Positions 9,196 to 31,380 of a stretch of 64,000 nt of DNA are shown here, in pieces. Both the position numbers and the translations under genes were made by a program. The notes under the pieces were generated by a model that was not told where the DNA came from, searched no databases, and worked only from the letters and a program-made list of their open reading frames with translations. The number at the start of each line of letters is the position of its first letter. Position 1 is the stretch's first letter. This DNA is from Microvirga aerilata (GTDB taxonomy: Bacteria; Pseudomonadota; Alphaproteobacteria; Rhizobiales; Beijerinckiaceae). The stretch lies in assembly GCF_016743775.1 (NCBI RefSeq), contig NZ_JAEQMY010000012.1, forward strand, positions 1-64,000. The letters are read 5' to 3'.

Positions 9196-9245
9196 TGGTA
9201 CAGCCGCCCCGGCTCGAACGGGGGACCCCCAGATCCACAATCTGG
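9196..9245 (-). pseudogene. tRNA-His 3' half (attachment-site remnant)
   Basis: Read on the minus strand from 9245, the sequence forms a 5-bp anticodon stem (CCAGA/TCTGG) around loop TTGTGGA with anticodon GTG. A five-base variable loop, a T-arm CCCCG-TTCGAGC-CGGGG, seven acceptor bases and A-CCA then follow. The geometry is exactly canonical. The D-arm and 5' acceptor strand are absent upstream, where unrelated sequence begins. Discriminator A is what alphaproteobacterial tRNA-His genes are known to carry. It is the displaced 3' half of a tRNA-His gene, as left by an integrating element. Confidence 0.8.
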
Positions 9246-9395
9246 TCCGAAGACCTAACAGAACGTAACAAATTCGGCCATCCCTAACCTCCTAAACTAT
9301 TGATAGATAATGGCTTAGACCTTGATGTTCGCCTTCGTTATGCTCAAGCCATAACGGTGCATAACACGACATCTCCGTTACCCTGATGTTACCCC
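9226..9395 (+). other. att core plus integrase-leader-like sequence, copy A
   Basis: The 20-mer cccccagatccacaatctgg at 9226-9245 recurs with one mismatch at 31212-31231. In both places a near-identical leader (containing tccgttaccc and ending gttacccc) follows, 148 bases later here and 147 bases later at the second site. At the second site this leader directly precedes a tyrosine integrase gene. Here no integrase follows; 9396-9627 is non-coding. The best reading is the left end of an integrated element whose integrase has been lost. Confidence 0.65.
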
Positions 9396-9627
9396 AGTGG
9401 CACCCACAACCCTCTTTGAGTGAGCCCCTTACCCTCGCGGCCATGGATCGGATTCTCGGGTGAACCTGTCCGAATGCTGGACCACGGCCGGACACGAACT
9501 CCGGCCAGAGGCGCTCCCCGAAACGGGAGCGAAGCATGTTGAGAGTGGCCGAGCGAATCGGCTGAACCTGATTTGCGGCCGGAAGCCTATTCTGTAGCCT
9601 CAACTGGCTCATGGCCATTGCTTCCGC

Positions 9628-11319
9628 TTAGGCAGCCGCATTGGCCTCACGGTGTCGTGCCAGGAGACCGCGACCGACAACATGGGCCTGTATTTCGGCA
9701 GCGCCCTCGAAGATGTTCAGAATTCGGGCGTCGCAGAGAACGCGGCTTATTTCGTATTCCAAGGCATAGCCGTTGCCTCCGTGGATCTGGAGGCCTGCGT
9801 CCGCGTTGCTCCAAGCCACCCGGGCGGCCAACAGCTTCGCCATTCCCGCTTGGACATCGCAACGGCGGCCGCTGTCCTTCTCCCGCGCGGCAAAGTAGGT
9901 GAGTTCGCGCGCCATTATGGTCTCGACCGCCATCAGCGCGAGTTTGTCGGAAACCCGCGGGAACTGGATGATAGGTTTCCCGAATTGAGCACGTTCGAGT
10001 GCATAGCGCATTCCGAGGTCGAGAGCCTTCCATGCAACTCCGACAGCACGGGCTGCGGTCTGGATGCGTGCACCCTCAAAGGTCTGCATCAGCTGCTTGA
10101 AGCCCTGCCCTTCCCCTCCTCCAAGAAGGGCCTCCGCCCCCAGTGCGAACCCGTCAAACGCAATCTCGTATTCCTTCATTCCGCGATAGCCGAGGACCTC
10201 GATCTCACTTCCCGACATAGTCTCGATCGGAAAGGGATCGATGTCCGTGCCGCGCGGCTTCGGTCCCAGAAACACCGACAGACCACCATGCCCAGGCTTC
10301 GAAGGATCCGTTCTCGCAAGGATCGTCATCAGATCGCTGCGTGACGCATGGGTGATCCAGGTCTTGTTGCCGTCAATCCGCCAGCCGGTTGATGTAGGCG
10401 TAGCGCGGGTGCGAAGGCTCGCCAGATCAGAACCGGCGTTCGGCTCGGTAAAGACGGCAGTTGGCAGGACCTCGCCTGAAGCGATCAGCGGGAGCCAACG
10501 GGCCTTCTGCTCCGGCGTTCCAGCACTGGCGATGAGATCGCCCGCGATCTCCGAGCGCGTGCCGAGCGATCCTGCAGCAATCCAAGCTCGGCTCAGTTCC
10601 TCGGTCACAACGCACATGGCAAGCTTTCCGAGGCCGAGGCCTCCATACTCCGTACCGATGCAGATACCGAACACCCCGAGCTCAGACATTTCGGCGATGA
10701 CTTCATCCGGAACCAGAGCATCGGCAAGATGCCAAGCATGCGCCTGCGGGGCGATCCTCTCCGCGGCGAAGCGGCGAAACTGATCCCGAATCATGTCCAG
10801 AGTGTCGTCACCGGGCGTCTCGTCAGGGCGATGCCCCGCGCGCAGCTCGGCCGTTAATGCAGCACGGTTGGCGGCCACATTGCCGGAGGCCAGGAAGACC
10901 GCGACCGCGGGATCGGATTGGAGGGCCGTCGCATCAGCGGCAAGCCCGAGTTCGCCCGGCCGCACGATCTCGTTCGGGCTCATCGGCAGGCCGCCAACCA
11001 ACTGCCCGAGGTACTCGCCGAAGCCAATCATGACAATCAGTGCCTCAGTCTGTCCGAGCGTCGCCGAATTCTTGAGGCTATTTGCCCAGGATGCCGTCTG
11101 GGCCAGCGTCTCTACGGTGGTGGCGATCCATGCAAGCCCATGCAGACGGCGCTGTTCCCGGTTAAGGGTCTGAGGATCGACGCGGCCATTCTGATCTATG
11201 AGATTCTGAGCGACAATCCGCTCGGCGGCGGTGCAGTACCGGCGGGCAGCGGCCGCCGCGCTGACTGCAAGATCCACGACGGTATCGTGGGTGAGCGGGT
11301 GAATCGCGTGGATGTGCAT
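9628..11319 (-). CDS. mcd: (2S)-methylsuccinyl-CoA dehydrogenase-like flavoprotein
   Basis: The 563-residue protein has the long N-terminal extension (about 150 residues, with [13 protein letters not shown] and [16 protein letters not shown]) that sets methylsuccinyl-CoA dehydrogenases of the ethylmalonyl-CoA pathway apart from ordinary acyl-CoA dehydrogenases of about 380 residues. The dehydrogenase part shows [22 protein letters not shown] and IFEGAAEIQ, the last with the usual catalytic Glu. It would oxidise methylsuccinyl-CoA to mesaconyl-C1-CoA using FAD, passing electrons to ETF. It is the last gene of the mct-hydratase-mcd set. A housekeeping mcd may exist elsewhere in the genome, making this a paralogue dedicated to catabolism. 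Confidence 0.75.
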
Positions 11320-11340
11320 AGGTTTCTCTCGTTTGCCTGA

Positions 11341-12183
11341 TCAGAAGGCAGCCTTGGCCTTCATGGCGATGGCGCCGTCGCAGCGGTCGGCGAAAAGGTC
11401 GTAGCCGTCATCGACCTCCTCCTTCCGCAGGCGCACCGGCTGACCGACAAAAAGCGGAGCCTGCCCATTGAAGCTGAATGAGCGCATGGGACGCTCTTCG
11501 CCCTGATAGGCCAGCAGGCACAGTTTCAAAGCTGTAAACGGTCCCTGCACGACAAGGTCGGGATAGAACTCGATGTCCCGTGCGTAGGATTGATCGTAAT
11601 GGATGCGATGGGCATTGAATGTGACAGCAGAGAACCGGAAAAGCTCGACGGTATTTGGCTGCCACACGTTGCCTTCCAAGGGTGTTGATGCAGGAATGAC
11701 CGGAGGTGAGCCCCCGGCCTGCCTGTACACGATTGTCTGGGATTCGATGAGACACGTACGAACCTCTTGCTCGATCCGCCTTTCAACTTCGACGAAGACG
11801 AGTTCGCCGGACCGCCCCGTCCGGTGCGTGACATCACGGATCCTCGTGACGCAGGAGGCCACTGCGCCAACTTTCAGCGCCGACAGAAATTCCGTCCGCC
11901 CCCCCGCGAACATGCGCCTGGGCAGGGTAACGGGGGGCATGAAACCGCCGCGTCGATGGTGTCCATCCTCGCCAAGGTCATGGGTGGCTACGGCGGGAAG
12001 AAAGTATGCCCAGTGCATCATCGGCGGCACCGTCGCAAAGAGTTCATCTGCACGCCGTCCCGCGGCAACAGCGAAGCGCGCCAGACTGGCGGCGTCTGTC
12101 TGTTGCACAGCACTCTGGCTGCTGCCGATATAGCTCCGATATTCCTCGATCATGCTGTCGGTAATCAGACGCTCCGCTGACAT
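11341..12183 (-). CDS. HTD2/MaoC-type acyl-CoA hydratase, probably mesaconyl-C4-CoA hydratase
   Basis: The 280-residue protein belongs to the double-hotdog HTD2-like hydratase family: an N-terminal FAS1-type dehydratase half (PPMMHWAYFLPAV, PRRMFAGGRTEF) and a C-terminal half with FNAHRIHYDQSYA, which holds the family's catalytic His/Asp region. Mesaconyl-C4-CoA hydratase and itaconyl-CoA hydratase are members, and both yield citramalyl-CoA. The gene sits between an mct homologue and an mcd homologue with gaps of only about 20 bases, so mesaconyl-C4-CoA is the most likely substrate. The start is supported by GAGGAG upstream. Itaconyl-CoA is the main alternative substrate. Confidence 0.7.
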   Translation of the reverse strand: MSAERLITDSMIEEYRSYIGSSQSAVQQTDAASLARFAVAAGRRADELFATVPPMMHWAYFLPAVATHDLGEDGHHRRGGFMPPVTLPRRMFAGGRTEFLSALKVGAVASCVTRIRDVTHRTGRSGELVFVEVERRIEQEVRTCLIESQTIVYRQAGGSPPVIPASTPLEGNVWQPNTVELFRFSAVTFNAHRIHYDQSYARDIEFYPDLVVQGPFTALKLCLLAYQGEERPMRSFSFNGQAPLFVGQPVRLRKEEVDDGYDLFADRCDGAIAMKAKAAF

Positions 12184-12206
12184 CTCGCTGATCTCCTCAT
12201 CCAGCC

Positions 12207-13430
12207 CTACTCTGCTGGACCGGCGACAATTCTGCGGTCGTGAAGATCCGCGATCTCGCCATCGGTGAGCCGCAGAACTTCGGCGAGGACCTGTTCGGTA
12301 TGCTCGCCGAGCCGCGGTGCGCAGGCTGGGGCTTGACGGCTGTGGCCAGTCATGGTCGCCGCATATCCCGGCGTCAGGTAACGGTGACCGCTCGGATGCT
12401 CGACCTCCGAAAACACCGGATTGCGCGGAGAGAGGCGCTCGTCCTGTTCAAGGGCGGCCTTGAGCGTGCGGTAAGGTCCCCAGCAGACACCCGCGGCATC
12501 AAAGCCGCTTGTAAGCTCGTTGGAATCTCTGCGGGCGACGGCTGCGGCCACGATGGGGTTCAGCCTGCCGCGGTGCTCGAAGCGCAGTCCTTCATCCACT
12601 GCGAAGGACAGCCCCAGTTCGGCTTCCAAGCTGGAAATCTGCTCCTGGATATCTAACGCACGGACAAGTCCCTTCCACTGCTTGGCGGTGATCGCGACAA
12701 TCATCAGGCGGCGGCCATCGCGGGTGATGAAATCGCGTCCAAAAGCGCCGAAAATATCGTTGTCCGTGCGGGGCCGATCGCTCCCTCCGATGAGGACCTC
12801 GGCAACTTGGCCGAGGTTGCCGAGTGTTGCCATTGCGACATCCCCGAGCGGTACGCGCACCTCCTCGCCCTGACCGGTCTCCCGCCGCCGCCGCTCTGCG
12901 GCCAGCAGAGAGAAGGCCGCGTATGCTCCTGTGAGCAGGTCCCAGGCCGGAAGGACATGGTTGACCGGCCCCTTCAGGGACGAGGGGCCGGTCATAGCCG
13001 GTACGCCGATTGCGCAATTAACTGTATAATCCAGTGCGGGCGTCCCATCCGGCCATCCCATAACCCTTACCGTGATCAGGTCCGGGCGGGTCATTCGCAG
13101 CTGATCATGGGATAGAAAGCCATCGACCGGGTAGTTAGTCAGGAAAATGCCGCCGTTCTCCCCGGGTGCGGTCGCCAGGCGCACGGCGAGCTCGCGCCCT
13201 TCAGGACGCGTCAGATCGAGTGCAATAGACTTCTTCCCCTTGTTGAGGCCCTCCCAATAGAGGCTCGGTCCACCCGGGATGCGGGGCCAGCGATGAATGT
13301 CGGGACCGCCGCCGATCTGATCAAACCGGATCACCTCCGCTCCGAGCTGGGCCAAGTGAAGACCGCACGAGGGTGCCGCGATGAAGGATGCTCCTTCGAC
13401 GACACGCAGGGTTTTAAGGTGATCGTACAT
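12207..13430 (-). CDS. mct: Mesaconyl-CoA C1-C4 CoA transferase-like (class III)
   Basis: A class III (CaiB/BaiF) CoA transferase of 407 residues from the preferred start. Its N-terminus LRVVEGASFIAAP and the blocks LAQLGAEVIRFDQIGGG, GLNKGKKSIALDL, VNHVLPAWDLLTG and APRLGEHTEQVL closely resemble the Chloroflexus enzyme, as I recall it, that moves CoA within mesaconate from C1 to C4. The conserved Asp in AWD is the expected acyl-anhydride residue. An in-frame start at 13487 with GAGAGG upstream is possible; 13430 fits the family N-terminus. It is first in the three-gene CoA module. Transfer of CoA to free mesaconate or itaconate is an alternative role. Confidence 0.75.
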   Translation of the reverse strand: MYDHLKTLRVVEGASFIAAPSCGLHLAQLGAEVIRFDQIGGGPDIHRWPRIPGGPSLYWEGLNKGKKSIALDLTRPEGRELAVRLATAPGENGGIFLTNYPVDGFLSHDQLRMTRPDLITVRVMGWPDGTPALDYTVNCAIGVPAMTGPSSLKGPVNHVLPAWDLLTGAYAAFSLLAAERRRRETGQGEEVRVPLGDVAMATLGNLGQVAEVLIGGSDRPRTDNDIFGAFGRDFITRDGRRLMIVAITAKQWKGLVRALDIQEQISSLEAELGLSFAVDEGLRFEHRGRLNPIVAAAVARRDSNELTSGFDAAGVCWGPYRTLKAALEQDERLSPRNPVFSEVEHPSGHRYLTPGYAATMTGHSRQAPACAPRLGEHTEQVLAEVLRLTDGEIADLHDRRIVAGPAE

Positions 13431-13526
13431 CGCTTTGAACAGAGCCCTCCTGACAGTTCTTGAAGTGCATTGGTAGCCATTATTCACAGCCTCTCACCGT
13501 CACGAGAGAGCGCTTGGAAGTGGAAC

Positions 13527-14600
13527 TCAGGCAGGCTCAGCCTGGAGTGGTGTAATCCCCTCTGGGCGCACCGCAACTTGAACTTTTTGTCCTGCAGGCA
13601 GGTTCTGCCCTGATGTCGCGGATGCGGTCACAACCTGTCCGTCCACAAGTCTCAGCTGATAATCCGTGTAGACGCCGCGGTAGACCACCCGCTCCAGAAC
13701 CGCATCAAACGTGATGTCCTCAGGACTCGGGTGGCCGTTAATACGCAGGTCCTCTCCGCGGATCGCAACGGCGGGCGGATGGGCGAATTTTGATGGGAGT
13801 TCTGGAAGGGCAACGCGGAACGCCGAGCATTCGAAAATGCTGCTTCTGCCCTGTCCAACCAGTTTTCCCTCAACAACGTTGCTGCCACGGAAGAAGGTTG
13901 CAACGAACTTTGTTCTTGGATGGCGGAACAGCGCGTGCGGCTCATCGACTTGGACAAGGTGTCCCCAGTTCAGCACCGCCACCCTGTCGCTCATTGTCAG
14001 AGCCTCCTCCTGGTCATGGGTCACGTAGACGAAAGCCGTGCCGGTTACCCTCTGGATGTCCTTCAACTGCGCCTGCATCTCGCGGCGGATCTTTTCATCC
14101 AGTGCTGAGAGCGGCTCATCGAGGAGAAGGAGCCGCGGCCGGGGGGCCAAGGCACGCGCGATGGCAACACGCTGCTGCTCACCTCCCGAAAGCCGCGTCA
14201 CTGGCCGCTCCTCAAAACCGGGCAAGCTCACCAGGTCGAGAAGCTCGGAAACCCGTTTGCGCACGGCCTCCCGGTCAAGTTTTCGACGGCGCAGGCCATA
14301 GGCGATGTTCTGGGCCACAGTCATGTGAGGGAAGTTGGCGTACTGCTGAAACACCATTCCGAGGTCGCGGCGCCACGGCGGAAGGTCAGTGACGTCCTGG
14401 CCGTTGATGAGAATGCGACCGCTGTCGGGATGCTCAAGCCCTGCGATCATGCGGAGGATCGTCGACTTTCCGGACCCGCTCGGCCCGAGCATCGTAAAGA
14501 ACTCTCCGTTTGCAACCTGGAGGTCGACACCCGCAGCCGTGACCTGCTTTCCAAACTGCTTCCGGACGGCGTGAACATGGAGAAGAGGAGAAGGGCTCAT
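13527..14600 (-). CDS. ABC importer ATPase, polyamine/spermidine type
   Basis: The 357-residue ATPase is of the PotA/FbpC class: Walker A GPSGSGKST, signature LSGGEQQRV, Walker B LLLLDEPLSALD and the switch His in VTHDQEEAL, followed by a C-terminal TOBE-like region (from about 240) that normally handles regulation. It powers uptake by the two permeases and the binding protein encoded upstream. In transcription order the operon is binding protein, permease, permease, pyroglutamyl peptidase, ATPase. Polyamine-type transporters also carry other organic amines and acids, so the substrate is open. Confidence 0.88.
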   Translation of the reverse strand: MSPSPLLHVHAVRKQFGKQVTAAGVDLQVANGEFFTMLGPSGSGKSTILRMIAGLEHPDSGRILINGQDVTDLPPWRRDLGMVFQQYANFPHMTVAQNIAYGLRRRKLDREAVRKRVSELLDLVSLPGFEERPVTRLSGGEQQRVAIARALAPRPRLLLLDEPLSALDEKIRREMQAQLKDIQRVTGTAFVYVTHDQEEALTMSDRVAVLNWGHLVQVDEPHALFRHPRTKFVATFFRGSNVVEGKLVGQGRSSIFECSAFRVALPELPSKFAHPPAVAIRGEDLRINGHPSPEDITFDAVLERVVYRGVYTDYQLRLVDGQVVTASATSGQNLPAGQKVQVAVRPEGITPLQAEPA

Positions 14601-14618
14601 TTGGTCCTGCTTGGGCAG

Positions 14619-15278
14619 TCAGCCTTGTTCAAGGGAGAGGGCCAGCGTCGTGCGAATGGCGTCAAGCATCATGTCCAGGCTCATCGACGCGAGATCCGCC
14701 CGCTGGTGCAGTTCAAGGCGCCCTTCGTTGCTGAGGTCGTTCAGGAGCTCGGCGACCTGCTGCGGAAGATACGGCACGTGAATGAAGCCGCAGCGCGTGC
14801 CGATCCCAAGCTGCTCGCAGGCCCCAAGGGCCCGATAGAGGGTCGCATTGCACAGAAATGTTCCCGCCGTGTCAGACGTCCTTGCCGGAATGCCCTTCTC
14901 GCGCAGCGAGGCGATGATCTGGCCTACGGGCAGGGTCACAGCCCGAGCAACCGGCCCCTCCTGATCGACGCTCTCATCCAAGGGGCGCTGCCCATCATTG
15001 TCAGGCATCTCGAAGCTGACCCGGTTGACGGCCACCCTTTCAAGCCGGATGACCGGCTCACCGGGCCAGAGGCCGGTCGAGACGACAAGGGCCGGACGAT
15101 GCTCCAAAATCGCGTCTTCCAGGGGCTGTCGTGCTGCGCCAAGGGAGACCGGAAGCAGCATGCCCCGAACGGTGCAGCCGCCGATCTGGGTTCTATCGAG
15201 AGCTCGAACGACCTCGGCGGAGGGATTGAGCTGACGCCCTCCATAGGGTTGAAATCCGGTCAGAAGAATCTCAGGCAT
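14619..15278 (-). CDS. pcp: Pyroglutamyl-peptidase I (peptidase C15)
   Basis: About 219 residues, the normal length for this cytoplasmic cysteine peptidase, which removes N-terminal pyroglutamate (5-oxoproline) from peptides. All catalytic positions are visible: Glu in RLERVAVNRVSFEMPDNDG, Cys in AGTFLCNATLY and His in GFIHVPYLP. The N-terminus PEILLTGFQPYGG is diagnostic. Start at 15278 was chosen because GGGAAG lies six bases upstream; the Met at 15296 has none. It sits inside an ABC importer operon, between a permease and the ATPase, which suggests that the imported substrate is a pyroglutamyl or similar lactam compound. Confidence 0.9.
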   Translation of the reverse strand: MPEILLTGFQPYGGRQLNPSAEVVRALDRTQIGGCTVRGMLLPVSLGAARQPLEDAILEHRPALVVSTGLWPGEPVIRLERVAVNRVSFEMPDNDGQRPLDESVDQEGPVARAVTLPVGQIIASLREKGIPARTSDTAGTFLCNATLYRALGACEQLGIGTRCGFIHVPYLPQQVAELLNDLSNEGRLELHQRADLASMSLDMMLDAIRTTLALSLEQG

Positions 15279-15296
15279 GGTCTGCTTCCCATTCAT

Positions 15297-16070
15297 TTAG
15301 GTTGCGGGTTGCTGCTTGCGGCCGAGCGCGACGAGCACCAGGATTAGCAGGAGCGTGACTGCGATGATGAGGCTCATTAGGGCGTACATATTCGGGGTGA
15401 GGCCGACCTGCTGATACCGGGACCAGATGAACGTCTGGATGGTATTGTTGCCCCCCTGCACGACCGCCGTGCGGATGGTCTCATTGAACGACAGGATCAC
15501 CGAGAACGTCGCCGCGCCACTAATGCCAGGCGCGATTTGCGGGAGCTCGATCTCGCGGAAGGCCTGCGCCCGGTTGGCTCCGCACGTGTAGGCCGCCTCC
15601 AAGTACAGCGTATCGAATCCTGACATCACGGTCAGTATGATCAAGAAGGCGAATGGCAAAGCCCAGAGAGTCTGAACCACAGCCATCGTCAGAAGAGAGG
15701 GATCAATCCCCGTCAGGTTGAAAAACAGACTGGTCGAAACTCCCATGCTGACGCCCGGGATGAAGAGCGGCAGCAAAATCACTGTGATAATAAGACGGGG
15801 AATACCGAAGGACCTGACGGCCTGGGCCGCAGCCAGAGCAAGCAACGGAGCGGCTACTCCAACGATGGCTGCGAGAATAATGGAATTCATCAACGCTCCG
15901 ACCAGCGTTGGGTCGGAATGGATCGTCCCGAAGTTCTGCAGTGTCAGCTGCCCGGTCGCGGGATCCTGGATTGCCAGAAGAAGCGGCGGGAACAGCGGCG
16001 CATACAGGAACAGAAGAACGCCCGCGAGGCACAGCCAGACCAGAATGCGCGTCCACGGCTTCATCATCAA
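15297..16070 (-). CDS. ABC importer permease, PotC type
   Basis: A 257-residue inner-membrane protein with about six hydrophobic segments. It carries the cytoplasmic loop motif of binding-protein-dependent permeases (EAAYTCGANRAQAFREIELPQI), which docks on the ATPase. Its start overlaps the stop of the upstream permease gene by four bases (ATGA), so the two are coupled. It forms the transmembrane channel with the second permease of this operon. Substrate unknown; polyamine-type family. Confidence 0.88.
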   Translation of the reverse strand: MMMKPWTRILVWLCLAGVLLFLYAPLFPPLLLAIQDPATGQLTLQNFGTIHSDPTLVGALMNSIILAAIVGVAAPLLALAAAQAVRSFGIPRLIITVILLPLFIPGVSMGVSTSLFFNLTGIDPSLLTMAVVQTLWALPFAFLIILTVMSGFDTLYLEAAYTCGANRAQAFREIELPQIAPGISGAATFSVILSFNETIRTAVVQGGNNTIQTFIWSRYQQVGLTPNMYALMSLIIAVTLLLILVLVALGRKQQPAT

Positions 16071-16942
16071 CGCCCCAGCATCTTGCCCAGGAAGAGCCGC
16101 AGATCAAAGAACCGCAGCCATAGGAGGAGCAGGAGCAGCATGCAGCCGACCACGACGGTCGACATGGCGGCTGCCATCGGATAGTTCAGAACGTCCAGGG
16201 AACTCGTGATGGCATTGCCCATGAGTTGGTAGCCAACCCCGCCAAGGATCTGCGAAACCGCCACCTCACCGAAGGCACCAACGAAGCCGAAGATTGCGGC
16301 GGCAAACACACCAGGCAGCGAAAGCGGCAGGACAACCTTCAGAAAGGTACCCAGCGGGGGCTCCCCCAGCATCCAGCTTGCCTCGATGAGCCGTCTGTCA
16401 ATGGCGCTGAGTGACAGCCAGATCGGATAGACCATGAAGGGCATGTAGGCCGCCACAAGCCCGAGGTAGACGGCGAAGTCGCTGAACAGCAGCCAGTCAA
16501 TGGGATGACTCGTGAGGCCTGCCCATTGCAGAAACTGATTGAGGGGTCCAGTTCGCCCGAGGAGATAGGCCCACGAGAAGGTCCGGATCACGTAATTCAC
16601 GAGAAACGGGACCGACAGAAGAAAGAGAAAGATCCGTGTCCGGCTTGGTGGAAGCTTGAAGGTGATCAGATACGCAACAAGATAGGCGGACGCCAACATT
16701 AAGAGCGTTGAGCTGGTCGCGACCCAAAAGCTTCGCTGAAGGACAGAAAAGCGCGCGCCGTCGAAGAACAGCGCATATGAGGCCAGGCTGAAGCCTGGCC
16801 TCATGCCAATCATCTGGCGCTCCCAGAAGCTGATGATCAGCGTCAGGACCAAGGGCACCACGATGGCAAGAGCGCAAAGGAGAACAGGTACTCCAAGCAG
16901 AACCGCCGCCCCTAGGTCCCGACGCTTCACAGCAGCGCTCAT
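16067..16942 (-). CDS. ABC importer permease, PotB type
   Basis: About 291 residues with six predicted membrane spans (the first near LGVPVLLCALAIVVPLVLTL) and the permease loop RLIEASWMLGEPPLGTFLKV. It pairs with the downstream PotC-type permease. The start at 16942 (MSAAVKRRDLG) avoids overlap with the binding-protein gene, which ends at 16966; an in-frame Met at 16990 is possible. It is part of the polyamine-type importer operon. Confidence 0.86.
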   Translation of the reverse strand: MSAAVKRRDLGAAVLLGVPVLLCALAIVVPLVLTLIISFWERQMIGMRPGFSLASYALFFDGARFSVLQRSFWVATSSTLLMLASAYLVAYLITFKLPPSRTRIFLFLLSVPFLVNYVIRTFSWAYLLGRTGPLNQFLQWAGLTSHPIDWLLFSDFAVYLGLVAAYMPFMVYPIWLSLSAIDRRLIEASWMLGEPPLGTFLKVVLPLSLPGVFAAAIFGFVGAFGEVAVSQILGGVGYQLMGNAITSSLDVLNYPMAAAMSTVVVGCMLLLLLLWLRFFDLRLFLGKMLGR

Positions 16943-16965
16943 GGAAACACCCCGGAATATCGTGG

Positions 16966-18132
16966 TTACGCGGCTTTGAAGCGCTGCCACTCTTCCTCAT
17001 AAGCCTCAATGTTCGAGGGCCAACGAGCCTGCCAGGTTCCTCCGGACTGGAACTTGGTCTTCACGCCCGCATCAATGTCGGCGATCTTTTTGGCCGTGAC
17101 AGGATCAAACTTGCCGGACTTAGAGGCAAACTCGGGAGCCGCCGGGTTTGTCATGTATCCGCGAAGATTGGTAATCACCGCACCGTATTCCGGGCTCAGC
17201 ATAAAGTCGAGAAGCTGGTAGGAGGCCTCAAGCTTCTCTGGTGAGCGGTTACCCGCGACAAGGTAGGCTGCCATGGCCCACAGCAGGAATCCCTCCTTCG
17301 GAGACGCGTAAACGGCATTGACGCCCTTGGCCTTAGCGGCAAAAACCATCGGTTCCCAGCAGTCCATGACGTAGACCTCCTGGTTCACGAGGAGGTTGAC
17401 GGCCTGCTCGAAGCTGGACCAGACAACGCGGAATTGCCCCTCCTTCTTCTTCTGGATCAGGAAATCGACAACCTTCTTGATCTCCTCCTTGGTCATGTTG
17501 GAAGGATCTTTGATGTCAACCAATCCAGCGGCCTTAAGGTACAGCGCGGTTTTTTGACCTGCCGTTGTGTAGTTGTCCTCAAGTGCGACATAGCCACGAA
17601 ACTTGGGATCGAACAGTGCTCCATAGGAGTTCAGCTCGCCGCCGGTCTTCTCTGGCAGATAGGCGAAGGAGTCTCCCTGAAGAATGGTTGGAACACCATA
17701 TACCTTGCCGTCATAGCCGATGAAGTCGAAGCCTTTGGACCCTGGCTTGAAATACGATGCTATGTACTCGTTGTTCTGCCAGTTCTTAAGCCGGCTTGTA
17801 TCAAGTGGGAGGATCAGTTTGTTCTCGACCAATGGCTTTTGCATGCCGCCGACAATGTTGATGATGTCGTAAGTTTGCCGTCCCCCGCCGGCGATCAACT
17901 GGTTCAACACAGCCGATGGACCATTGCCAATTGAGACGAGGTTGACCTTGTTTCCAGTGGCCTTCTCGTAGCCGGACCAGTCGCCGTTTGGATCGCCAAC
18001 ACCAATGTCTGCCAGCGTGACCGTTTGCCCGACAGCGAAAGCTGCGCTGGGGCGGAGCGCGAGCGCTCCGGCGCCGACAGCGGCACCTGCCAGAAGAGTA
18101 CGGCGGTTAAACTGCTTCAGTTCATTGCTCAT
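16966..18132 (-). CDS. Periplasmic binding protein of polyamine-type ABC importer (Tat signal)
   Basis: About 388 residues. The N-terminus has a twin-arginine-like signal (NRRTLLAGAAVGAGALAL followed by an AFA cleavage region), and the body resembles PotD-like extracellular solute-binding proteins (ADIGVGDPNGDWSGYEKATG near the start). It should capture the substrate in the periplasm and hand it to the permeases. Start 18132 is supported by GAGGGAG upstream and by the position of the signal. It is the first gene of the operon, so the promoter should lie in 18133-18307, where no motif is clear enough to report. Confidence 0.86.
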   Translation of the reverse strand: MSNELKQFNRRTLLAGAAVGAGALALRPSAAFAVGQTVTLADIGVGDPNGDWSGYEKATGNKVNLVSIGNGPSAVLNQLIAGGGRQTYDIINIVGGMQKPLVENKLILPLDTSRLKNWQNNEYIASYFKPGSKGFDFIGYDGKVYGVPTILQGDSFAYLPEKTGGELNSYGALFDPKFRGYVALEDNYTTAGQKTALYLKAAGLVDIKDPSNMTKEEIKKVVDFLIQKKKEGQFRVVWSSFEQAVNLLVNQEVYVMDCWEPMVFAAKAKGVNAVYASPKEGFLLWAMAAYLVAGNRSPEKLEASYQLLDFMLSPEYGAVITNLRGYMTNPAAPEFASKSGKFDPVTAKKIADIDAGVKTKFQSGGTWQARWPSNIEAYEEEWQRFKAA

Positions 18133-24243: not shown

Positions 24244-25058
24244 TACTTGGTCCGCGGATCCAGGACATCCCTTAGAGTGTCTCCGAACATGTTGAGACCG
24301 AGCACCGTCAGGGCCACTGCTGCTCCAGGCACCAGCGCTGTCCAGGGAGCAATATCGAGGTAGTCACGCGAGGCCTGGATCATCAGGCCCCAGGAGGATT
24401 GCGGAGGCTGTGTTCCGAGGCCGAGGAAGGACAAACCAGCTTCAGCCAGGATGGCGAAGGCGAGGCTGATCGTCGCCTGAACGATGATTGGCGGCATGAT
24501 GTTTGGCAAGATATGCCGGAGGATCATCTGCAGGTCGTTCGTGCCCGCAGCTCGAGCCGCCTCGACATAGGGCATCTGTGCCACCCGCAGCGCCTCGCCT
24601 CGAATAATCCGGGCGAGGAAGGGTGTGAATGCTATGCCGATGGCAATGATCGTGTTTGGCAGGTTCGGGCCGAGCATTGCACTGATGGTTAGTGCCAGCA
24701 GCAGGGCCGGGAAGCTCAACAGAGTATCGACAAGCCGCATCAGCACGTTATCAACATGCCCGCGATAGTAGCCTGAGATGATGCCAAGTGGAAGTCCGAG
24801 GAGTACGCTCATCGCAACGGCGGCCCCGGCGATCATCAGCGAAGTGTTAGCGCCAAGCATTACGCGGTAGAACAGGCTGCGTCCCAGTTGGTCTGTGCCG
24901 AGCAAGTAATCCGCCGAAGGGGGGCGGAGCCGAGCGGTCATGGTCATCCGCGTCGCGAGATCGGCGGGAATCAGCAGAGGCGCCAGGATCGCAATCAAAA
25001 GGATCGCTAGAACCAACGAGAGTCCGATGAGGCCCTTAGGAGTGAGAAACCGTTTCAC
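24243..25058 (-). CDS. Peptide-type ABC importer permease (DppC type)
   Basis: About 271 residues with a short cytoplasmic N-terminus, a first span (GLIGLSLVLAILLIAILAPL), the family block LLGTDQLGRSLFYRVMLGA and the ATPase-docking loop PYVEAARAAGTNDLQMILRH. The GTG start at 25058 fits the stop of the upstream permease at 25064; the longer frame upstream lacks family character. It forms the channel with the DppB-type permease and is coupled to the ATPase gene by overlap. Confidence 0.87.
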   Translation of the reverse strand: MKRFLTPKGLIGLSLVLAILLIAILAPLLIPADLATRMTMTARLRPPSADYLLGTDQLGRSLFYRVMLGANTSLMIAGAAVAMSVLLGLPLGIISGYYRGHVDNVLMRLVDTLLSFPALLLALTISAMLGPNLPNTIIAIGIAFTPFLARIIRGEALRVAQMPYVEAARAAGTNDLQMILRHILPNIMPPIIVQATISLAFAILAEAGLSFLGLGTQPPQSSWGLMIQASRDYLDIAPWTALVPGAAVALTVLGLNMFGDTLRDVLDPRTK

Positions 25059-25063
25059 TGCGC

Positions 25064-26005
25064 CTACCCCAGCCGGATGCGAGGATCGACGAGCAGATAA
25101 AGCAGATCGACGATCAGGTTGGTCAACATCACTACTGCAGCGATGACAAAGACGGTTGCCTGGATCAGGGGCACGTCGCGGTTCAGCAGAGCCTGATAGG
25201 TGAGCCAACCCATGCCGGTATAATTGAATAGCGTTTCAACCACAATGATGCTCCCGAAGAGATAGCCGACCTGGAGCCCAGCGACGGTCATTACGGGTCC
25301 GATTGCATTCGCCAGCGCGTAACGCCAAACCACCGTTCGCTCAGCGAGCCCCTTGGCGCGGCTGACCCGGATGAACTCCTGTTCGAGAATTCCCGTCATG
25401 GTGGATCGTGTCATGCGGGTGAGATGCGCCATCAGGCCAAGGCCGAGCGCAAGAGCGGGCAAAAAGGCGTGCATCAGAGCACGCCCGAATTCTTGAGCCG
25501 GATCGGCAAAGCCGCTCGAAGGGAACCAGCCGAGCGTTCGGGCAAACAGCAGGATCATGACGATGCCCCAGAAGAAATCGGGTAAGCTGATCCCGAGCAG
25601 GGCGCTGCTGCTGCTGACTGTATCCTGCCATCGGTTGCGATGGACGGCAGCCCATACCCCGAGCGGAACCGCACATGCGAGTGCAATGACCATCGACATG
25701 ATGACGATGAGAGAACTCGCCTTGATTTTCTGGATCAGGAGTTCCGCGATCGGCTGCTTGAACACCAGTGAGTGCCCCCAGTCTCCGGTCAGCAACCCGC
25801 CGATCCAGCGGCCGTACCGCATGATAACGGGATCATTGAGGCCGAGCGACTCGCGCAGCCCGGCCAGCGCCGCGGGGTTGCTCTGGGTGCCCATGATCAT
25901 CGTGGCAACGTCGCCTGGAAGTATGTTTGTGACCCCAAACGTGATCACCGAGATCAGGAAGAGGGTGAGGACGATCGAGAGCAATCGGTTCAGGATATAG
26001 GTCAT
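25064..26005 (-). CDS. Peptide-type ABC importer permease (DppB type)
   Basis: About 313 residues starting MTYILNRLLSIVLTLFLISV, a classic DppB N-terminal span, then the periplasmic domain with NILPGDVATMIMG and the docking loop EFIRVSRAKGLAERTVVWRY. The start at 26005 was chosen because the family begins here; the 30 residues before it are not membrane-like. It lies between the binding protein and the DppC-type permease in the same operon. Confidence 0.88.
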   Translation of the reverse strand: MTYILNRLLSIVLTLFLISVITFGVTNILPGDVATMIMGTQSNPAALAGLRESLGLNDPVIMRYGRWIGGLLTGDWGHSLVFKQPIAELLIQKIKASSLIVIMSMVIALACAVPLGVWAAVHRNRWQDTVSSSSALLGISLPDFFWGIVMILLFARTLGWFPSSGFADPAQEFGRALMHAFLPALALGLGLMAHLTRMTRSTMTGILEQEFIRVSRAKGLAERTVVWRYALANAIGPVMTVAGLQVGYLFGSIIVVETLFNYTGMGWLTYQALLNRDVPLIQATVFVIAAVVMLTNLIVDLLYLLVDPRIRLG

Positions 26006-26079
26006 GAGGTGTATCCAACAGGGCCGCGTCCCAAAACAAACGGAGCCGGCGCGCCGTTGCGCGCCGGCCTTTGCGCAGG

Positions 26080-27627
26080 TTAGGCCCGCAGCCAAACCTT
26101 ATGAAAGTTCAGGTTGCTGCCGTTCGGATGAACGATCGTGTCAATTCCACCAACCGACGGCTGCGCCCCAATTGAGCCGTTCCGGAACCACAGGATGACA
26201 TCGTGAACCTCATCGAAAATGCGCTGCTGCACCTGCTTGTAAATATCATCCCGCGCTGCAGGATCGGTCGTGACGCGTGCCTTCTCAAGAAGTTCGTCCA
26301 AGACCGGATCCTTGATCTTGCGGTAGTTGAAGGCGCCCGTTGAATGCCATTCGCTGTAGTAGAGGAAGTCAGGCTCCCACAACGTGAAGAAGTTCATCAT
26401 ACTGACTTGGAAGTCCTTGTTGGTCCAGACTTGGCTCAGCCAATCACTCCAGGTCAGCTGCTCAATGGTCATCTGGACGCCCGCTTCGCGGAACCACTCG
26501 ACCATAATCTGGGCAGCCTCAATGTGGTAAGGATAGTTTGTAGTTGTTTTGAAGACGACTTTGAGCTTTCCAGGACCGTAGCCTGCTTCGGCTAGGAGCG
26601 CCTTGGCTTTCTGAATGTCCTGAGGCCGGTTGCTCAGCGCCGCGTTGCGGGAAGTTGAGGTTGGGTAGCTCGGGGTGGCCGTGAGCTTGCCCTGGCCCCA
26701 GAGGGCTCCCTGAAGCAACTGCTCCTTATCGATGAGCAGGTCGAAGGCCAGGCGAACCCGCTTATCCTTGAAGGGTTCGAACTCATGATTGAAGTTAACG
26801 AAATCCCAGTTGAGCGGGAACCAGGTCCGGACCTGGAGTTTGGAGTTGCTTTTGATCTCCTCAATCCGGTCCGCTGGAATATCGTTGATCATGTGGAGCT
26901 CGCCTGTGCGAAGTCCGGTCAGGCGCACCGTGGGCTCGGTCACCTCGCGGGCGATCACGCGCTCGAGGTAGGCAGGCCCGTCCCAGTAGTCATCGAAGCG
27001 CTGCAGTTCGACCTCGTGGCCGAACTCGCGTCGCACGAACTTGAAGGGGCCTGCGCCGATCGGCGTATTGGCCTGCGCCTCGCCCGATCCCTCCGGCATG
27101 ATGGCGCCTGCTCCGTTCTCCGCGAGGCGACTGAGAAAGGGAGCGTTGACCTTGGACATCTTCACGACCACGGTCAGGTCATCCGGCGTCTCGATGGCCG
27201 CGACGTTGTTGAAGACCTCGAAGTTGACCGCGCCAGTGGCCGGGTTCTTGCAGCGCTCAAACGAGTACTTCACATCAGCAGAGGTCATGGTCTTGCCGTT
27301 GTGGAACTTGACGCCGGGTCGCAGGCGAAAGGTGTAGGTCAACCCATCGTCGCTCTGCTCGTACTTTTCGGCGAGGTTCGGGATCACCTTGAGGTTCTGA
27401 TCGACTGTCACGATCGGGGCATGCACGTTCTGCAGCACCCGCAGGGTAGAGGCTGTCCCGGTCTGGTGGATGTCGAGGTTCTGTGTGGTCTCCGAATGGC
27501 CCCAGATCAGGGTGCCGCCGCGTTTTGGCGCGTCCTGAGCCGTGAGGGTGGCCGGGTGCAGCGTCCCGAGGAAGCCGGCTCCCCCGATAACGGCTGCGGT
27601 GGATTTCAGAAAGTCTCTGCGTTTCAT
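26080..27627 (-). CDS. Periplasmic peptide-binding protein (SBP family 5, Tat signal)
   Basis: About 515 residues, typical of family 5 solute-binding proteins (DppA, OppA, NikA). The N-terminus MKRRDFLKSTAAVIGGAGFL is a twin-arginine signal, and body motifs include KRGGTLIWGHSETTQNLD and TYTFRLRPGVKFHNGK. The start at 27627 has GAGGG five bases upstream; a Met at 27645 is also in frame. It delivers peptides, glutathione-like compounds or opines to the permeases. It is the first transporter gene after the amidase, and the substrate is probably the amide that the cluster degrades. Confidence 0.9.
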   Translation of the reverse strand: MKRRDFLKSTAAVIGGAGFLGTLHPATLTAQDAPKRGGTLIWGHSETTQNLDIHQTGTASTLRVLQNVHAPIVTVDQNLKVIPNLAEKYEQSDDGLTYTFRLRPGVKFHNGKTMTSADVKYSFERCKNPATGAVNFEVFNNVAAIETPDDLTVVVKMSKVNAPFLSRLAENGAGAIMPEGSGEAQANTPIGAGPFKFVRREFGHEVELQRFDDYWDGPAYLERVIAREVTEPTVRLTGLRTGELHMINDIPADRIEEIKSNSKLQVRTWFPLNWDFVNFNHEFEPFKDKRVRLAFDLLIDKEQLLQGALWGQGKLTATPSYPTSTSRNAALSNRPQDIQKAKALLAEAGYGPGKLKVVFKTTTNYPYHIEAAQIMVEWFREAGVQMTIEQLTWSDWLSQVWTNKDFQVSMMNFFTLWEPDFLYYSEWHSTGAFNYRKIKDPVLDELLEKARVTTDPAARDDIYKQVQQRIFDEVHDVILWFRNGSIGAQPSVGGIDTIVHPNGSNLNFHKVWLRA

Positions 27628-27751
27628 CTGATCCCTCTGATTCACTGTGCGCTGTGGGCGCGAGCTAATCGTGTTGTGAGCTGTCCCACTGGCTCCGGCA
27701 GACGGTGGCCGCGGGCTTCTTATCGTTAATCTCTGATCTTCGGCCTGCTCC

Positions 27752-27778
27752 TCTCCAGGGAGCGTGTCTCCAGGGAGC
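27752..27778. repeat. 12-bp direct repeat, two copies
   Basis: The sequence tctccagggagc occurs at 27752-27763 and 27767-27778 (period 15 bases), in the 185-base gap between the amidase and the binding-protein gene. It could be a tandem operator for control of the transporter operon, or chance. No regulator can be tied to it from sequence. Confidence 0.4.
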
Positions 27779-27812
27779 CTGCCGCCGGGACGACGCTCCC
27801 GGATCAGCTTGG

Positions 27813-29471
27813 TCAGGACGGAAGACCAGGCCTGAGCGCGGCCACACCGAACTCGCGCTCAAGGGCCATTCCCAAGTTCAGGATGGACCCCTCCTCGAAA
27901 AGCCGCCCCCAGATCGAGATACCCTGCGGCACCCTGAACGTCGGTCCCGCTGCGTCAGGTTCGCCTGTCGTAAGCTTGCCCTCACCGAGGGAGGCATCGC
28001 TGCGGGTGCCAACATCAAGGAAGCCAGCGCGCAGGTGTAAGCATGGATGGCCGGTGAAGTTGCTTGCGATCAGCATCGGGCCGGTCATGAACGGCCCGAT
28101 CAGCGCATCAACTTGGGAGAAGAGGCCGTCTAGCGCCAGCATCACCTGATAGCGCAGCCGGTCGAGCTGGACGTGGTCCACAGCCGAGAGAAACCGCGCC
28201 TTGCGGAAGGTGTTGGGCCATGCGCCCTCGTCCTGCCAGGTCAGGGTGTCGTCGAGATCGGTCAGCGTCAGCTCCTCGAAGGCGGCGGCGGCCTCAGCAT
28301 AGAGGATGTTCATCAGCGAACCGTAGGGCAGATCGGGCAGTGAGACTTCGACAACCTCGATCCCGAGGCGGCGCACGGCCTCAAGTGCCGCATGGTCGAC
28401 TGCGTTGGCTCCCTCACCAAATGCCTCAGGCAGGTAGCCGAGCCGCATCCCCGCAAAGTCCGCGTTCGCATCGAAATGAAATGGCGCATCAATGGACGAG
28501 CGATCCGCGAGATCAGGGCCATTGAGGGCAGCCAGCACAATGGCGGTGTCCTCGACTGATCGGCAGATCGGCCCTACCTTGTCGAGCGACCAGCAGAGCG
28601 CCATACCGCCCGCGCGCGAGACCCGGCCGAAGGTCGGGCGCAAGCCGGTAGTGCCGCAGCGTTGACTCGGCGATGTGATGGAGCCCAGCGTCTCCGTACC
28701 GATCGCAAAAGCACACAGCCCTGCGGCCGTGGCCGAAGCCGACCCGGCGCTCGATCCACTCGATCCTTCGTTGAGGTTCCAGGGATTGCGGGTGCGCCCG
28801 CCATACCAGATGTCGTTGTACGCCAGGGCGCCGACGGTTGTCTTGCCAAGCAGGACCGCGCCGGCCGCGCGCAGCTTACGAACGATGGTCGCATCGTTCT
28901 CAGGCACCCGCTCCCGGAACGGCTCCGCTCCCCAGCCGGTGACAATACCCTTGGTGTCAAACAAATCCTTGAGCCCATAAGGAATACCGTGGAGCGGCCC
29001 AAGATTGACGCCAGCCCGCAGCAGCGCATCCGCTGCGTCCGCCTCGGCCCGTGCAAGTTCAGGCGTCACCATCGCTAAACATTCAAGCTTAGGTCCGAGC
29101 GCCTCAATCCGGGCGAGGTAGATCTCTGTCAATCTGCGGCTGGTCAGAGCGCCCGAGGCAATCCAGGCAGAAAGCTGCGTCACCGGCGCAAAAGCGATGT
29201 CGGAGTCGTCTCGCGGGACGGACGTCGGCCCGGGGGCACTGAAGCGCAGCGGGCCCAGGGGGGCGGGCATGCGGAAGGTGGAGAGCCGGGGATCGAAACG
29301 GCTAGCCATCGGCGTAGAATTGGCGAGCGGCACCGCTCGGCGGGCACGGGCTGAGGTGATCTGACCCTCCAGATTGCCCGCCATTTGGCTTCGCTCTTGC
29401 GATGTATAGACAATCCCTAAGAGGCGCTCTGCTGCTTCGATGTCATTCGGAGTTATCGTTTGCTCATTCAT
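27813..29471 (-). CDS. Amidase-signature-family amidase
   Basis: The 552-residue protein has the Ser-cisSer-Lys triad of the amidase signature family: Lys in YGLKDLFDTKG, cis-Ser in the Gly/Ser-rich GSSGSSAGSASA, and the nucleophile in the LGSITSPSQRCG block (the usual motif has GSIR-x-P). About 100 extra N-terminal residues precede the domain, as in allophanate hydrolase and other carbon-nitrogen amidases. It hydrolyses an amide to acid and ammonia in the cytoplasm. It is the first enzyme gene after the GntR regulator and precedes the peptide importer. Substrate unknown. Confidence 0.87.
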   Translation of the reverse strand: MNEQTITPNDIEAAERLLGIVYTSQERSQMAGNLEGQITSARARRAVPLANSTPMASRFDPRLSTFRMPAPLGPLRFSAPGPTSVPRDDSDIAFAPVTQLSAWIASGALTSRRLTEIYLARIEALGPKLECLAMVTPELARAEADAADALLRAGVNLGPLHGIPYGLKDLFDTKGIVTGWGAEPFRERVPENDATIVRKLRAAGAVLLGKTTVGALAYNDIWYGGRTRNPWNLNEGSSGSSAGSASATAAGLCAFAIGTETLGSITSPSQRCGTTGLRPTFGRVSRAGGMALCWSLDKVGPICRSVEDTAIVLAALNGPDLADRSSIDAPFHFDANADFAGMRLGYLPEAFGEGANAVDHAALEAVRRLGIEVVEVSLPDLPYGSLMNILYAEAAAAFEELTLTDLDDTLTWQDEGAWPNTFRKARFLSAVDHVQLDRLRYQVMLALDGLFSQVDALIGPFMTGPMLIASNFTGHPCLHLRAGFLDVGTRSDASLGEGKLTTGEPDAAGPTFRVPQGISIWGRLFEEGSILNLGMALEREFGVAALRPGLPS

Positions 29472-29646
29472 CCTTACTGACCCCTATGCAAAACTTGCCG
29501 CTCATCAGAGGCAACATCGCAGGCTCTCGCATCAACTGAGACTTTCCTTGGCGTTCCCGATTGATCCTGCCCGGCCGACAGTGATGCTTGCTTATTGCCC
29601 CGCGCTGGGCGCAGGAACGATTTTGGTCCCACGCCATCTGGAGAGT

Positions 29647-30441
29647 TCATCGCCGGCCACGCTGCTTCACACTCCATATTGGAGTTCTTTCTTGATATTC
29701 AGGAGAAATGGTTGTTCCCGACGAAGCCCAGCCATCATAGGATAGGGGGCTCGTCATGGTCTGGAGAATGCCGTCACGGACGAGTTGCAGGTGCTCGCGC
29801 ATGGCTTGCTCTGCGGCATGGGCCTCGCGCTGTCCAATGGCGGTGATAACCCGGCGGTGCTGCTCAGCGATCAGCCGCTGCCGCTCGCCGGAGCGAGCGC
29901 GTTCGCGCAGAAGCAGCCAAGTCTTGTCCTGCCGGATACGATCGACCATCTCGAAAATCGCCAGCAGCAGGCTGTTACCGGCAATCTCCGCAATCGTCCG
30001 GTGCAGAGCGCTGTCCCAGAGCTCGCGACTGTCCGCGTCAGCGCTGGACGTGACCCTGTCGGCAAGGCGCAACAGGCGCTGGACGTCGCCGTTCGAGGCC
30101 CGCAGCGCCGCCATTCGCGCGAGGGCCGGCTCGATCTCGAGACGGACATCCATGACCTCGAGGGGATTGGTGCGCTCGGTCAGTTCTTCCAAGCTCGGGT
30201 GGGGCTGAACTGGACGCGGGCCGAGGAATGTCCCTTTTCCTTGATGGCGCCAGATCCGTCCCTCGGTTTCCAGGACCTCGAGAGCCCGCCTCAGGGCCTG
30301 TCGGCTGATACCAATTTGCGTGGCCAGAACACGCTCCGGTGGGAGCCGTTGCCCCTCCTCGAAGGAGCCCTCCTCAAGCAGAGCCCGAAGCCGCACCAGG
30401 GCAAGGTTCGAGCTATTAGGCAATGACTCTGGTTGGGACAT
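29647..30441 (-). CDS. FadR/GntR-family regulator with FCD domain
   Basis: About 264 residues. A winged HTH is seen in LRALLEEGSFEEGQRLPPER, then GISRQALRRALEVLETEGRI, followed by an all-helical FCD effector domain (LEIEPALARMAALRAS, DSALHRTIAEIAGNSLLLAI and the late EHRRVITAIG). These regulators usually repress catabolic operons and are released by a pathway metabolite, often a carboxylic acid, bound at a metal site in the FCD domain. It lies at the head of the 20-kb minus-strand cluster and probably controls at least the amidase-importer part. The start at 30441 fits the family N-terminus. Confidence 0.88.
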   Translation of the reverse strand: MSQPESLPNSSNLALVRLRALLEEGSFEEGQRLPPERVLATQIGISRQALRRALEVLETEGRIWRHQGKGTFLGPRPVQPHPSLEELTERTNPLEVMDVRLEIEPALARMAALRASNGDVQRLLRLADRVTSSADADSRELWDSALHRTIAEIAGNSLLLAIFEMVDRIRQDKTWLLLRERARSGERQRLIAEQHRRVITAIGQREAHAAEQAMREHLQLVRDGILQTMTSPLSYDGWASSGTTISPEYQERTPIWSVKQRGRR

Positions 30442-30539
30442 CGGACACCAAACGGAACCAACTGTTCTGCCAGCGCATAGCGTGGCGAACTTTCTGTTCA
30501 AAACCATGCGCACTGATGATCTTAATGCAAACCACCGCT

Positions 30540-30571
30540 AAACCAATCAGCAATTGGTCTGATACTGGTTT
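30540..30571. promoter_or_regulatory. Interrupted palindrome, likely operator of the GntR regulator
   Basis: The arms aaacca-atcag (30540-30550) and ctgat-ac-tggttt (30559-30571) form an inverted repeat broken only by two bases, with ttggtc-like half-sites inside. GntR/FadR regulators bind such TGGT...ACCA dyads. It lies about 100 bases upstream of the regulator start, the usual place for autoregulation. Confidence 0.5.
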
Positions 30572-31211
30572 GTCGCACAGGCTGACTGGAGCGGCGACCG
30601 GACGATGAGGAGTTGCTTCGTGCGAACCGGCGCGTCTTCGGGCATCGAACCGAAAAACTTCTAGGCCTGGGACGCCCCAAATCTTTCGGCTCGAGCGGTG
30701 CTGGATCATGCAAGGACAGCGCCTATGCTTGTTGGCTTCTGAAGCCGTGCAGCCCGCTTTCTCCGTGAAGTCAGGTTCAGGTTGATCATACCAGTCCGCC
30801 AACTTTTAGTCGCGTGGCTCCATCATCTGGTATTTAGCATGATCCGAGCGTGGCCTCCCCAAGGCGTGGGCAAGTGCTTGGCAGTCGCCCGCTTCGCCAC
30901 AGTAGAATCAATAGCTGACATATCGAACAGGCAGGAACGGTACGTTCCATGCTAAAACGTTATTCTGCCGATTTGGCTCTTATGATAGGATGAGGCAATT
31001 CAATTCCAAAGAGTAGCTTCAGATAGAGTATCTTCAGATATAGTCTTCGCTCCCTGTGCAGACTTCTTGAATCGCGCAAATGGTGTTTGGCGACCCCTCC
31101 AGACGCTCGAACCAGTTCAGGACATCACGCGCCGACAAGTGAACACGCTCTGGTCAGTCGGCACAAAGCCAACGAGCGCTCCCTTCCATGCCACCCTGCC
31201 CATGCAAAGAG
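30572..31211. other. Gap before the att site; no gene supported
   Basis: About 640 bases without a convincing gene. A small imperfect direct repeat (tcttcagata-like units) is seen at about 31,010-31,045. On the tandem-element model this is the right end of the left element. Confidence 0.4.
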
Positions 31212-31380
31212 CCCCCAGATCCGCAATCTGGAGAACAGCCTTAACGGAGCCAATCAGTTCCTCCCATATCAGGGCCAAAAAAGTCTCTTGTTTCCTTGCA
31301 CTAAGTCCAGTGTTAAGCCAAGATCGTCACATTGGATAACAGGGCGTAACGGCCCGTATCCGTTACCCCTGTGTTACCCC
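31212..31380 (+). other. att core plus integrase leader, copy B
   Basis: The 20-mer cccccagatccgcaatctgg (31212-31231) differs by one base from the anticodon arm of the tRNA-His half at 9226-9245. After 147 bases comes a leader (31359-31380, with tccgttaccc and gttacccc) nearly identical to that at 9374-9395. The integrase ATG follows 20 bases later. Unlike copy A, the T-arm and acceptor stem are absent on the left, as expected for an element-element (attP-like) junction. Confidence 0.65.

Follow-up and report, generated by a model that had tools for sequence, protein, structure and literature searches.

A probable stack of related islands at the tRNA-His gene of Microvirga aerilata, read from repeat pairs at the island ends

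Genomic islands stacked at one tRNA gene are a known kind of phenomenon. The case considered here lies at tRNA-His of Microvirga aerilata and was approached through a 64,000-nucleotide stretch, the window: positions 1 to 64,000 of contig NZ_JAEQMY010000012.1 (C33) in an assembly (GCF_016743775.1) of 6,829,749 bases and 382 contigs. We consider it quite probable that the locus is a stack in which islands termed X, Y and Z lie between host DNA and the intact tRNA-His gene, Y beginning at a displaced piece of the tRNA termed copy A and Z at another termed copy B. Accretion of cis-mobilizable elements (CIMEs) related to ICESt1 of Streptococcus thermophilus (PMC5704250) is alike in that the composite could excise as a unit; the present locus differs in showing no conjugation genes among the open reading frames (ORFs) scanned, and in that its inner attachment (att) site appears damaged and the right end of Y missing; Y alone may no longer move. 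The ssrA islands of Dehalococcoides (PMC3146451) are likewise arranged in tandem at one RNA gene and carry catabolic cargo, 15 of them without an integration module, but they use a serine recombinase, whereas here there are tyrosine integrases and five kinds of repeat pair. The Islander table (PMC4383910) lists 2083 islands with an anticodon-centred attP, in which, as here, the 3' fragment is displaced and the tDNA restored, and 125 tandems of two or more; each member of an Islander tandem needs its own fragment and integrase, so that Y, having no integrase, would not qualify. The attP of IntS of ICEMlSym(R7A) (PMC11963761) also belongs to an alphaproteobacterial tyrosine integrase and has arm-type sites around its core, but these are five sites with the consensus TGKTGGTATC, in place of repeat pairs with units 11-12 bp apart.

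The sole intact tRNA-His gene (GTG) of the genome is C33:103440-103516, on the minus strand and in the same orientation as copy A; ARAGORN found no tRNA in the 64-kb window. An earlier reading of the window, made without database searches, had proposed related tyrosine-integrase elements stacked at tRNA-His, a view that repeat pairs, integrases and displaced tRNA halves now bear out, and had expected the tRNA 5' half to the right of 31 kb, outside the window: the location was right, and what lies there is the whole tRNA. The genome search which that reading had proposed, for the rest of the gene and for further displaced copies, recovered this gene together with displaced 3' halves at ~9.2 kb of C33 (copy A) and at C346:17446-17501, on another contig. 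C33 thus has the form of an island at tRNA-His, with the intact tRNA at one end and a displaced 3' fragment in the same orientation at the other. One near-complete tRNA-His is present in 47 of 48 genomes of the genus, and none was found in the remaining one (G055); displaced 3' halves occur in 16 of the 48 (E ≤ 1e-5), from which tRNA-His appears to be an integration hotspot. At 19 displaced sites with leader repeats, the tRNA homology gives out beyond CCACAA but before the stem is complete in 8, and continues through the whole stem (AATCTGG) in 11, end points consistent with exchange in the anticodon loop, the cleavage positions being predicted ones.

Copy A (9197..9245, minus strand) corresponds by sequence comparison to the 3' part of tRNA-His: anticodon arm, with T arm, acceptor stem and CCA retained to the left, homology with the intact gene and its flank covering 9159-9246 at 90%. 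Its 20-mer, CCCCCAGATCCACAATCTGG at 9226-9245, is identical to that of the intact gene; the 20-mer of copy B, CCCCCAGATCCGCAATCTGG at 31212-31231, differs from both by one base in the loop (A at 9237, G at 31223). Copy B (31212..31231, minus strand), found in the same way, is an anticodon arm only, with the loop CCGCAAT, and its 17-base core occurs once in the genome. Alignment to the left of it disclosed no tRNA 3' half, intact or decayed: the score of -4 was equalled or bettered by 70% of 2000 random island segments, and the same test gave 18 for the inner site of a stack in another genome, G018. On the two 20-mers and on what each copy keeps or lacks, the sequence-only reading was thus correct. 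It had further seen nearly the same integrase leader at the same distance from each copy. The distance does agree to within 1 bp, GTTACCC repeat pairs starting 131 (A) and 130 (B) bases past the core, but the likeness is that of a shared repeat block rather than a shared leader: it comprises 46 columns (9351-9395 against 31336-31380, 35 of 44 aligned bases identical) made up of ATAAC...TAAC and then the direct pair CGTTACCC / TGTTACCC, 11 bp apart, with a local score of 22 against a maximum of 18 among 300 random island pairs. Outside the block the leaders are not recognisably alike, and a genome search with the 301-base surroundings of copy B did not recover copy A at E 1e-3. Nor does equal spacing mark out A and B, for the repeat pair begins some 111-132 bases past the core in 13 of 14 left ends, and at 77 in the other (core strings of slightly differing length were used for these distances).

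Pairs of this kind fall into five types, GTTACCC, GCTTCCC, GCTTACC, GGTCACC and GCTCCCC, with units 11-12 bp apart. The spacing is 11 bp in 13 of the 14 left ends and 12 bp in one; for the GTTACCC type it is 12 in all four right ends (C33:103361-103381, for example) and 11 in six of seven left ends. We read the GTTACCC repeats as putative integrase arm sites, because tyrosine integrases are known to use such sites (PMC11963761) and the Arm-DNA-bind_3 domain is present. Seven of eight empty tRNA-His sites (G005, G008, G010, G012, G013, G014, G016, G023) carry no such pair and the eighth, G012, has an unrelated unit; G001, G003, G017, G021, G022 and G024 were fetched but fall outside this control. 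Left and right types match in 12 of 14 end pairs that had been assigned without using type, some with both ends on one contig (G000-Z, G015, G020, G002, the inner pair of G059, G052, G041), others with the only displaced copy on a separate contig (G011, G006, G019, G042, G054). Three ends, the right ones of G041 and G054 and the left one of G045, were read by eye, their degenerate second unit falling below the script threshold. The count leaves out three pairs assigned with the help of repeat type (X and two in G018); G004, G007 and G009, which have a displaced 3' half and no assignable leader pair, are left out both here and in the loop counts given below. Of these last, G007 and G004 keep the CCACAA loop and G009 has a changed one (CCGCCAT); a CGTAACC pair between the displaced copy of G007 and tRNA-Lys may belong to tRNA-Lys. 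A 19-bp ungapped matrix separated GCTTCCC ends well and GTTACCC ends poorly, partly from their spacing of 11 on the left against 12 on the right, so that pairing of GTTACCC ends relies on the repeated unit. An automatic repeat-pair scan upstream of 22 integrases, which listed none for 7, was set aside because its frames began too far upstream and missed the real pairs of the L099 and L101 leaders. Repeat type is not bound to tRNA-His, since a second element of the source genome, with a GTTACCC-type integrase (C111:375325-376593) 48% identical to that of Z, adjoins a tRNA-Lys 3' half.

Copy A is best read in these terms as a junction, the right end of X meeting the left end of Y, because a GCTCCCC-type pair directly to its left, GCTCCCCC / GCTACCCC (9117..9135, plus strand, 11 bp apart), matches the leader pair GCTCCCCC/GCTCCCCC of an integrase on C346 (16131-17300): the unit is of the same kind, and its placement with respect to the tRNA 3' half is that of other right ends. 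Junctions of different repeat types occur also at G018:C130, G059:4362425 and G019:C115. The outer boundary, which the sequence-only reading had placed at copy A, is best read as the third tRNA-His 3' half, that on C346, in the neighbourhood of genes of the native host flank. Two such genes are found past it, C346:19306-20214 and C346:20400-21491; their homologues (81-84% and 71-73% identical) adjoin tRNA-His in four of 11 single-copy relatives (G008, G013, G014, G023), the first of them 238-321 bp from the anticodon core, with TctC on the other side of tRNA-His; a TctC gene is also the flank that follows tRNA-His on C33. In G009, where the 3' half is decayed, the first gene is farther from tRNA-His. 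On the simplest reading the native downstream flank would be on C346 rather than at copy A. The part of X in the window would include 669..8302 (strand unassigned), with WecG-type and GT1 glycosyltransferases, an Ig/RTX-repeat protein and a GAF-domain protein, on the evidence of Pfam and of a G+C of 0.53-0.56 across 1-10 kb; its link to C346 is through repeat type, not contiguous sequence. Sugar-transferase genes and GAF proteins (the GAF pair 42% identical) are found both on C33 1-9.2 kb and on C346, which fits one element without proving it. By eye, the contig start (window positions 1-200) resembles the terminal part of a transposase gene, a possible cause of the assembly break.

Copies A and B appear to represent different lineages, as left ends of different islands of one family, because each leader has its own homologue in another species. 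The leader of Y (9255-9397) shares 76% identity over 143 bp with G018:C110:7834-7976, a stretch that has a tRNA-His 3' half before it and a truncated integrase after it (C-terminal remnant 8056-8448). For copy B with the leader of Z (31212-31399) the homologue is G059:C1:4343970-4344157, with 79% identity over 188 bp; there the 3' half is complete and the integrase truncated (133 residues matched, 72%). The predicted left-end arm pairs, found by repeat analysis, are CGTTACCC / TGTTACCCC for Y (9376..9395, plus strand) and CGTTACCCC / TGTTACCCC for Z (31361..31380, plus strand). Adjoining the latter is the integrase of Z (31400..32731, plus strand; 443 aa, Arm-DNA-bind_3 and Phage_integrase by Pfam), in which R, HxxR, H and Y, the catalytic residues of tyrosine integrases, are present in an alignment of nine integrases. 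It is 71% identical to the integrase of a 17-kb tRNA-His island in G015 whose ends match. A 70-aa ORF (33498..33710, plus strand) is a candidate excisionase, or recombination directionality factor: it has a DNA-binding profile hit (phrog_4745, E 3e-7), weak excisionase hits (phrog_66, 6e-4; phrog_1553, 5e-3) and none in Pfam, and similar ORFs stand beside related integrases. With these two genes Z would possess an integration/excision module, and its right end would be the repeat pair at C33:103361-103381, of GTTACCC type as at 31361.

The interval between the two copies looks quite different. As the sequence-only reading had held for its left element, no integrase is found there: tblastn with 22 integrase queries at E 1e-2 gave, between 9.2 and 31.3 kb, one hit, the tRNA piece of copy A. 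It is occupied by a catabolic block (9628..30396, minus strand; 17 ORFs scanned, one of them without a family), assigned with NCBIfam at the level of family, most scores being below equivalog cut-offs: acyl-CoA dehydrogenase, a CoA-transferase/isomerase family, two ABC uptake systems, the pyroglutamyl-peptidase, carbamoylase/hydantoinase and creatininase families, an amidohydrolase, an amidase and a GntR regulator. We infer that this block is cargo of Y, which agrees with the proposal of the sequence-only reading. An A-type island on G018:C110 (7.8-66.7 kb) also has ABC, carbamoylase, creatininase and amidase families, at 24-40% identity to those of the block. DNA searches of 48 genus genomes at E 1e-20 matched one block end (9246-13430) only in single stretches of G007 and G018, and the other (27813-31399) in the GntR gene of most genomes and the B leader of G059; nowhere else did the two ends turn up together. 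Among plasmids, 24.2-31.4 kb as query drew 271 partial-match records, none covering 80% of the query, and those listed cover at most 6%. Y shares with CIMEs the lack of an integrase, and its left att end is intact; its right one is absent, so that Y would not be a CIME proper and could behave as one only in a composite that recombines through Z's right end.

The order that we propose is native flank, 3' half and X integrase (C346), contig gap, X right end, copy A with the left end of Y, catabolic block, copy B with the left end, integrase and excisionase candidate of Z, defence genes, the right end of Z at 103.36 kb and the intact tRNA-His. Each island would carry, or once have carried, a tyrosine integrase whose N-terminal domain binds arm sites, and would have entered by exchange in or near the anticodon loop, the tRNA being restored from the island end and the displaced 3' half left at the integrase end; newcomers would use for recombination either the tRNA or the copy that an earlier island had left behind, as in the accretion model (PMC5704250). 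Y would later have lost its integrase and right end, to persist as a CIME-like remnant accreted beside Z. Copy B, which the sequence-only reading took for an element-element junction, does appear to be the left end of the integrase-bearing Z, but as a damaged junction from which the right end of Y and the tRNA 3' half are missing, a loss probably best explained by a deletion ending at the copy B core.

Several points weigh against this reading. The assembly does not join C33 to C346, which makes X as a single element, like the order across the gap, a reconstruction. The comparison with relatives, while placing the C346 flank genes next to tRNA-His in four, did not find the first of these genes beside tRNA-His, within the stretch fetched, in the other seven of 11 (G005, G010, G012, G016, G017, G022, G024), and a 500-aa ORF with no match in the relatives compared (C346:17674-19176) separates the C346 3' half from the flank genes. 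The arm sites are predicted from repeats. Repeat types disagree in two end pairs, that of G045 and that on the left side of the G059 stack, where GTTACCC at the left end faces GCTTCCC at the right. As for Y, the tblastn search with the 22 integrases found no remnant of its integrase in the source genome, and copy B has no right-end repeat pair, so that the end of Y is not seen. The G045 island (C89:150304-157479) is 7 kb long, with a left end that is GGTCACC-like by eye and a GCTTCCC right end; it is perhaps a fused remnant of two islands.

Other explanations of the locus fare less well. If copy A marked the outer limit of the stack against the host, with nothing but ordinary chromosome left of 9.2 kb, its retention of a whole tRNA 3' half would be natural, but native flank genes adjoin another 3' half, on C346, a repeat pair of a different type sits directly left of copy A at the usual right-end position, and the G+C of 0.53-0.56 at 1-10 kb departs from the 0.62-0.68 that mostly prevails right of the tRNA (one 2.5-kb bin there is 0.57); we find this hardly credible. 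Scarcely any weight attaches either to the idea that a single element duplicated one leader into A and B and took up the catabolic block between the two: equal spacing and the 46-column block would be accounted for, but A is nearer to its G018 homologue, and B to its G059 homologue, than either is to the other.

A further alternative, unlikely but deserving some weight, is that the block was never cargo of Y and came by illegitimate or homologous recombination, replacing the Y integrase, the Y right end and the tRNA 3' half of Z. Site structures are indeed truncated on both sides, with no integrase after A and no 3' half before B, and the failure to find the block ends together in the 48 genomes also agrees, in a DNA search that covered 9246-13430 and 27813-31399. 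On the other side stands the A-type island of G018, where the similar gene families between two sites fit cargo of the lineage; even so, ABC genes are common and the identities low. There is also the matter of whether the right end at 103.36 kb is that of Y or of Z. It could belong to either, their repeat type being common, and the lack of a tRNA 3' half left of copy B leaves room for Y as owner, though we think this unlikely: the further 3' half that would be expected from a Z right end was not found in the contig by core search of C33 or by similarity, and in G059 the leader of B type is accompanied by an ordinary 3' half. Our preferred reading is still that of X, Y and Z stacked in that order, with the end at 103.36 kb given to Z.

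The remainder of Z includes a DUF927/primase-like protein (35159..36853, plus strand; Pfam and profile hits). Window positions 37000-52500 hold mostly short ORFs at lower G+C, among them LuxR-type regulators (37221-37943, 49733-50455) and DUF6894 proteins (43145-43420, 44858-45109). Defence genes follow at C33:86346-100232, where two type III restriction-modification pairs stand in line with a DrmD-like helicase; an rve-type transposase gene (91337-92221) separates the pairs. No relaxase, oriT or type IV secretion genes were seen among the Pfam-scanned ORFs, which are part of those in 31.4-103.4 kb. A scan of named genomes with the Z integrase gave no relative; 78 stretches fit the pattern and none was confirmed.

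Tyrosine recombinases generally require identity in the exchange region. Core to core, A lies 94,244 bp and B 72,258 bp from tRNA-His; because the loop of copy B, the presumed exchange region, is mismatched, exchange of A with the tRNA should be favoured over exchange of B. Since the outer left site of Y and the right end at the tRNA share both repeat type and an identical 20-bp core, we tentatively suggest, while thinking it rather doubtful, that two islands of the same type coexist stably at one tRNA only once the inner att is disabled, and that 9.2-103.5 kb would be excised, if at all, as a 94-kb unit by the inner integrase. In all three same-type stacks (the source genome, G059 and G018) the outer left site CCACAAT is intact and its integrase missing or truncated, and the inner site, beside an integrase, has a changed loop (CCGCAAT here, CCAGAAT in G059, CCATAAT in G018); CCACAA is changed in none of the 16 other displaced sites with leader repeats tabulated. 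Such a division, noticed post hoc, would arise by chance 1 time in 969. The three stacks may not be independent; the contig order in G018 is a reconstruction; inner sites may simply decay unused, the loop being changed also in the relic of G009, which has no leader pair; and a mismatch brought by an incoming attP would give the same picture. The inner integrase of G018 has one stop codon inside the match. The 48.5-kb tRNA-His stack of G059 (C1:4343970-4392483), on a 5.3-Mb contig, has GTTACCC outer ends and a truncated outer integrase; inside it, a GCTTCCC|GTTACCC junction bears the changed loop, and no stops are reported for the inner integrase.

Literature searches, thin on subscription papers, brought up nothing on using arm type to match up the ends of stacked islands, and nothing on loss of the inner att in same-type stacks. 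Stacks at one tRNA are difficult to resolve where members no longer have an integrase; here the type of repeat pair suggests which right end goes with which left end, and through it junctions such as copy A become readable as X|Y and the likely outer boundary can be located. If the inner-site pattern holds, it would supply a testable rule, that decayed islands become permanent cargo of live ones after the inner recombination site is lost; and if that is true here, the catabolic block would have been captured as permanent cargo of the composite.

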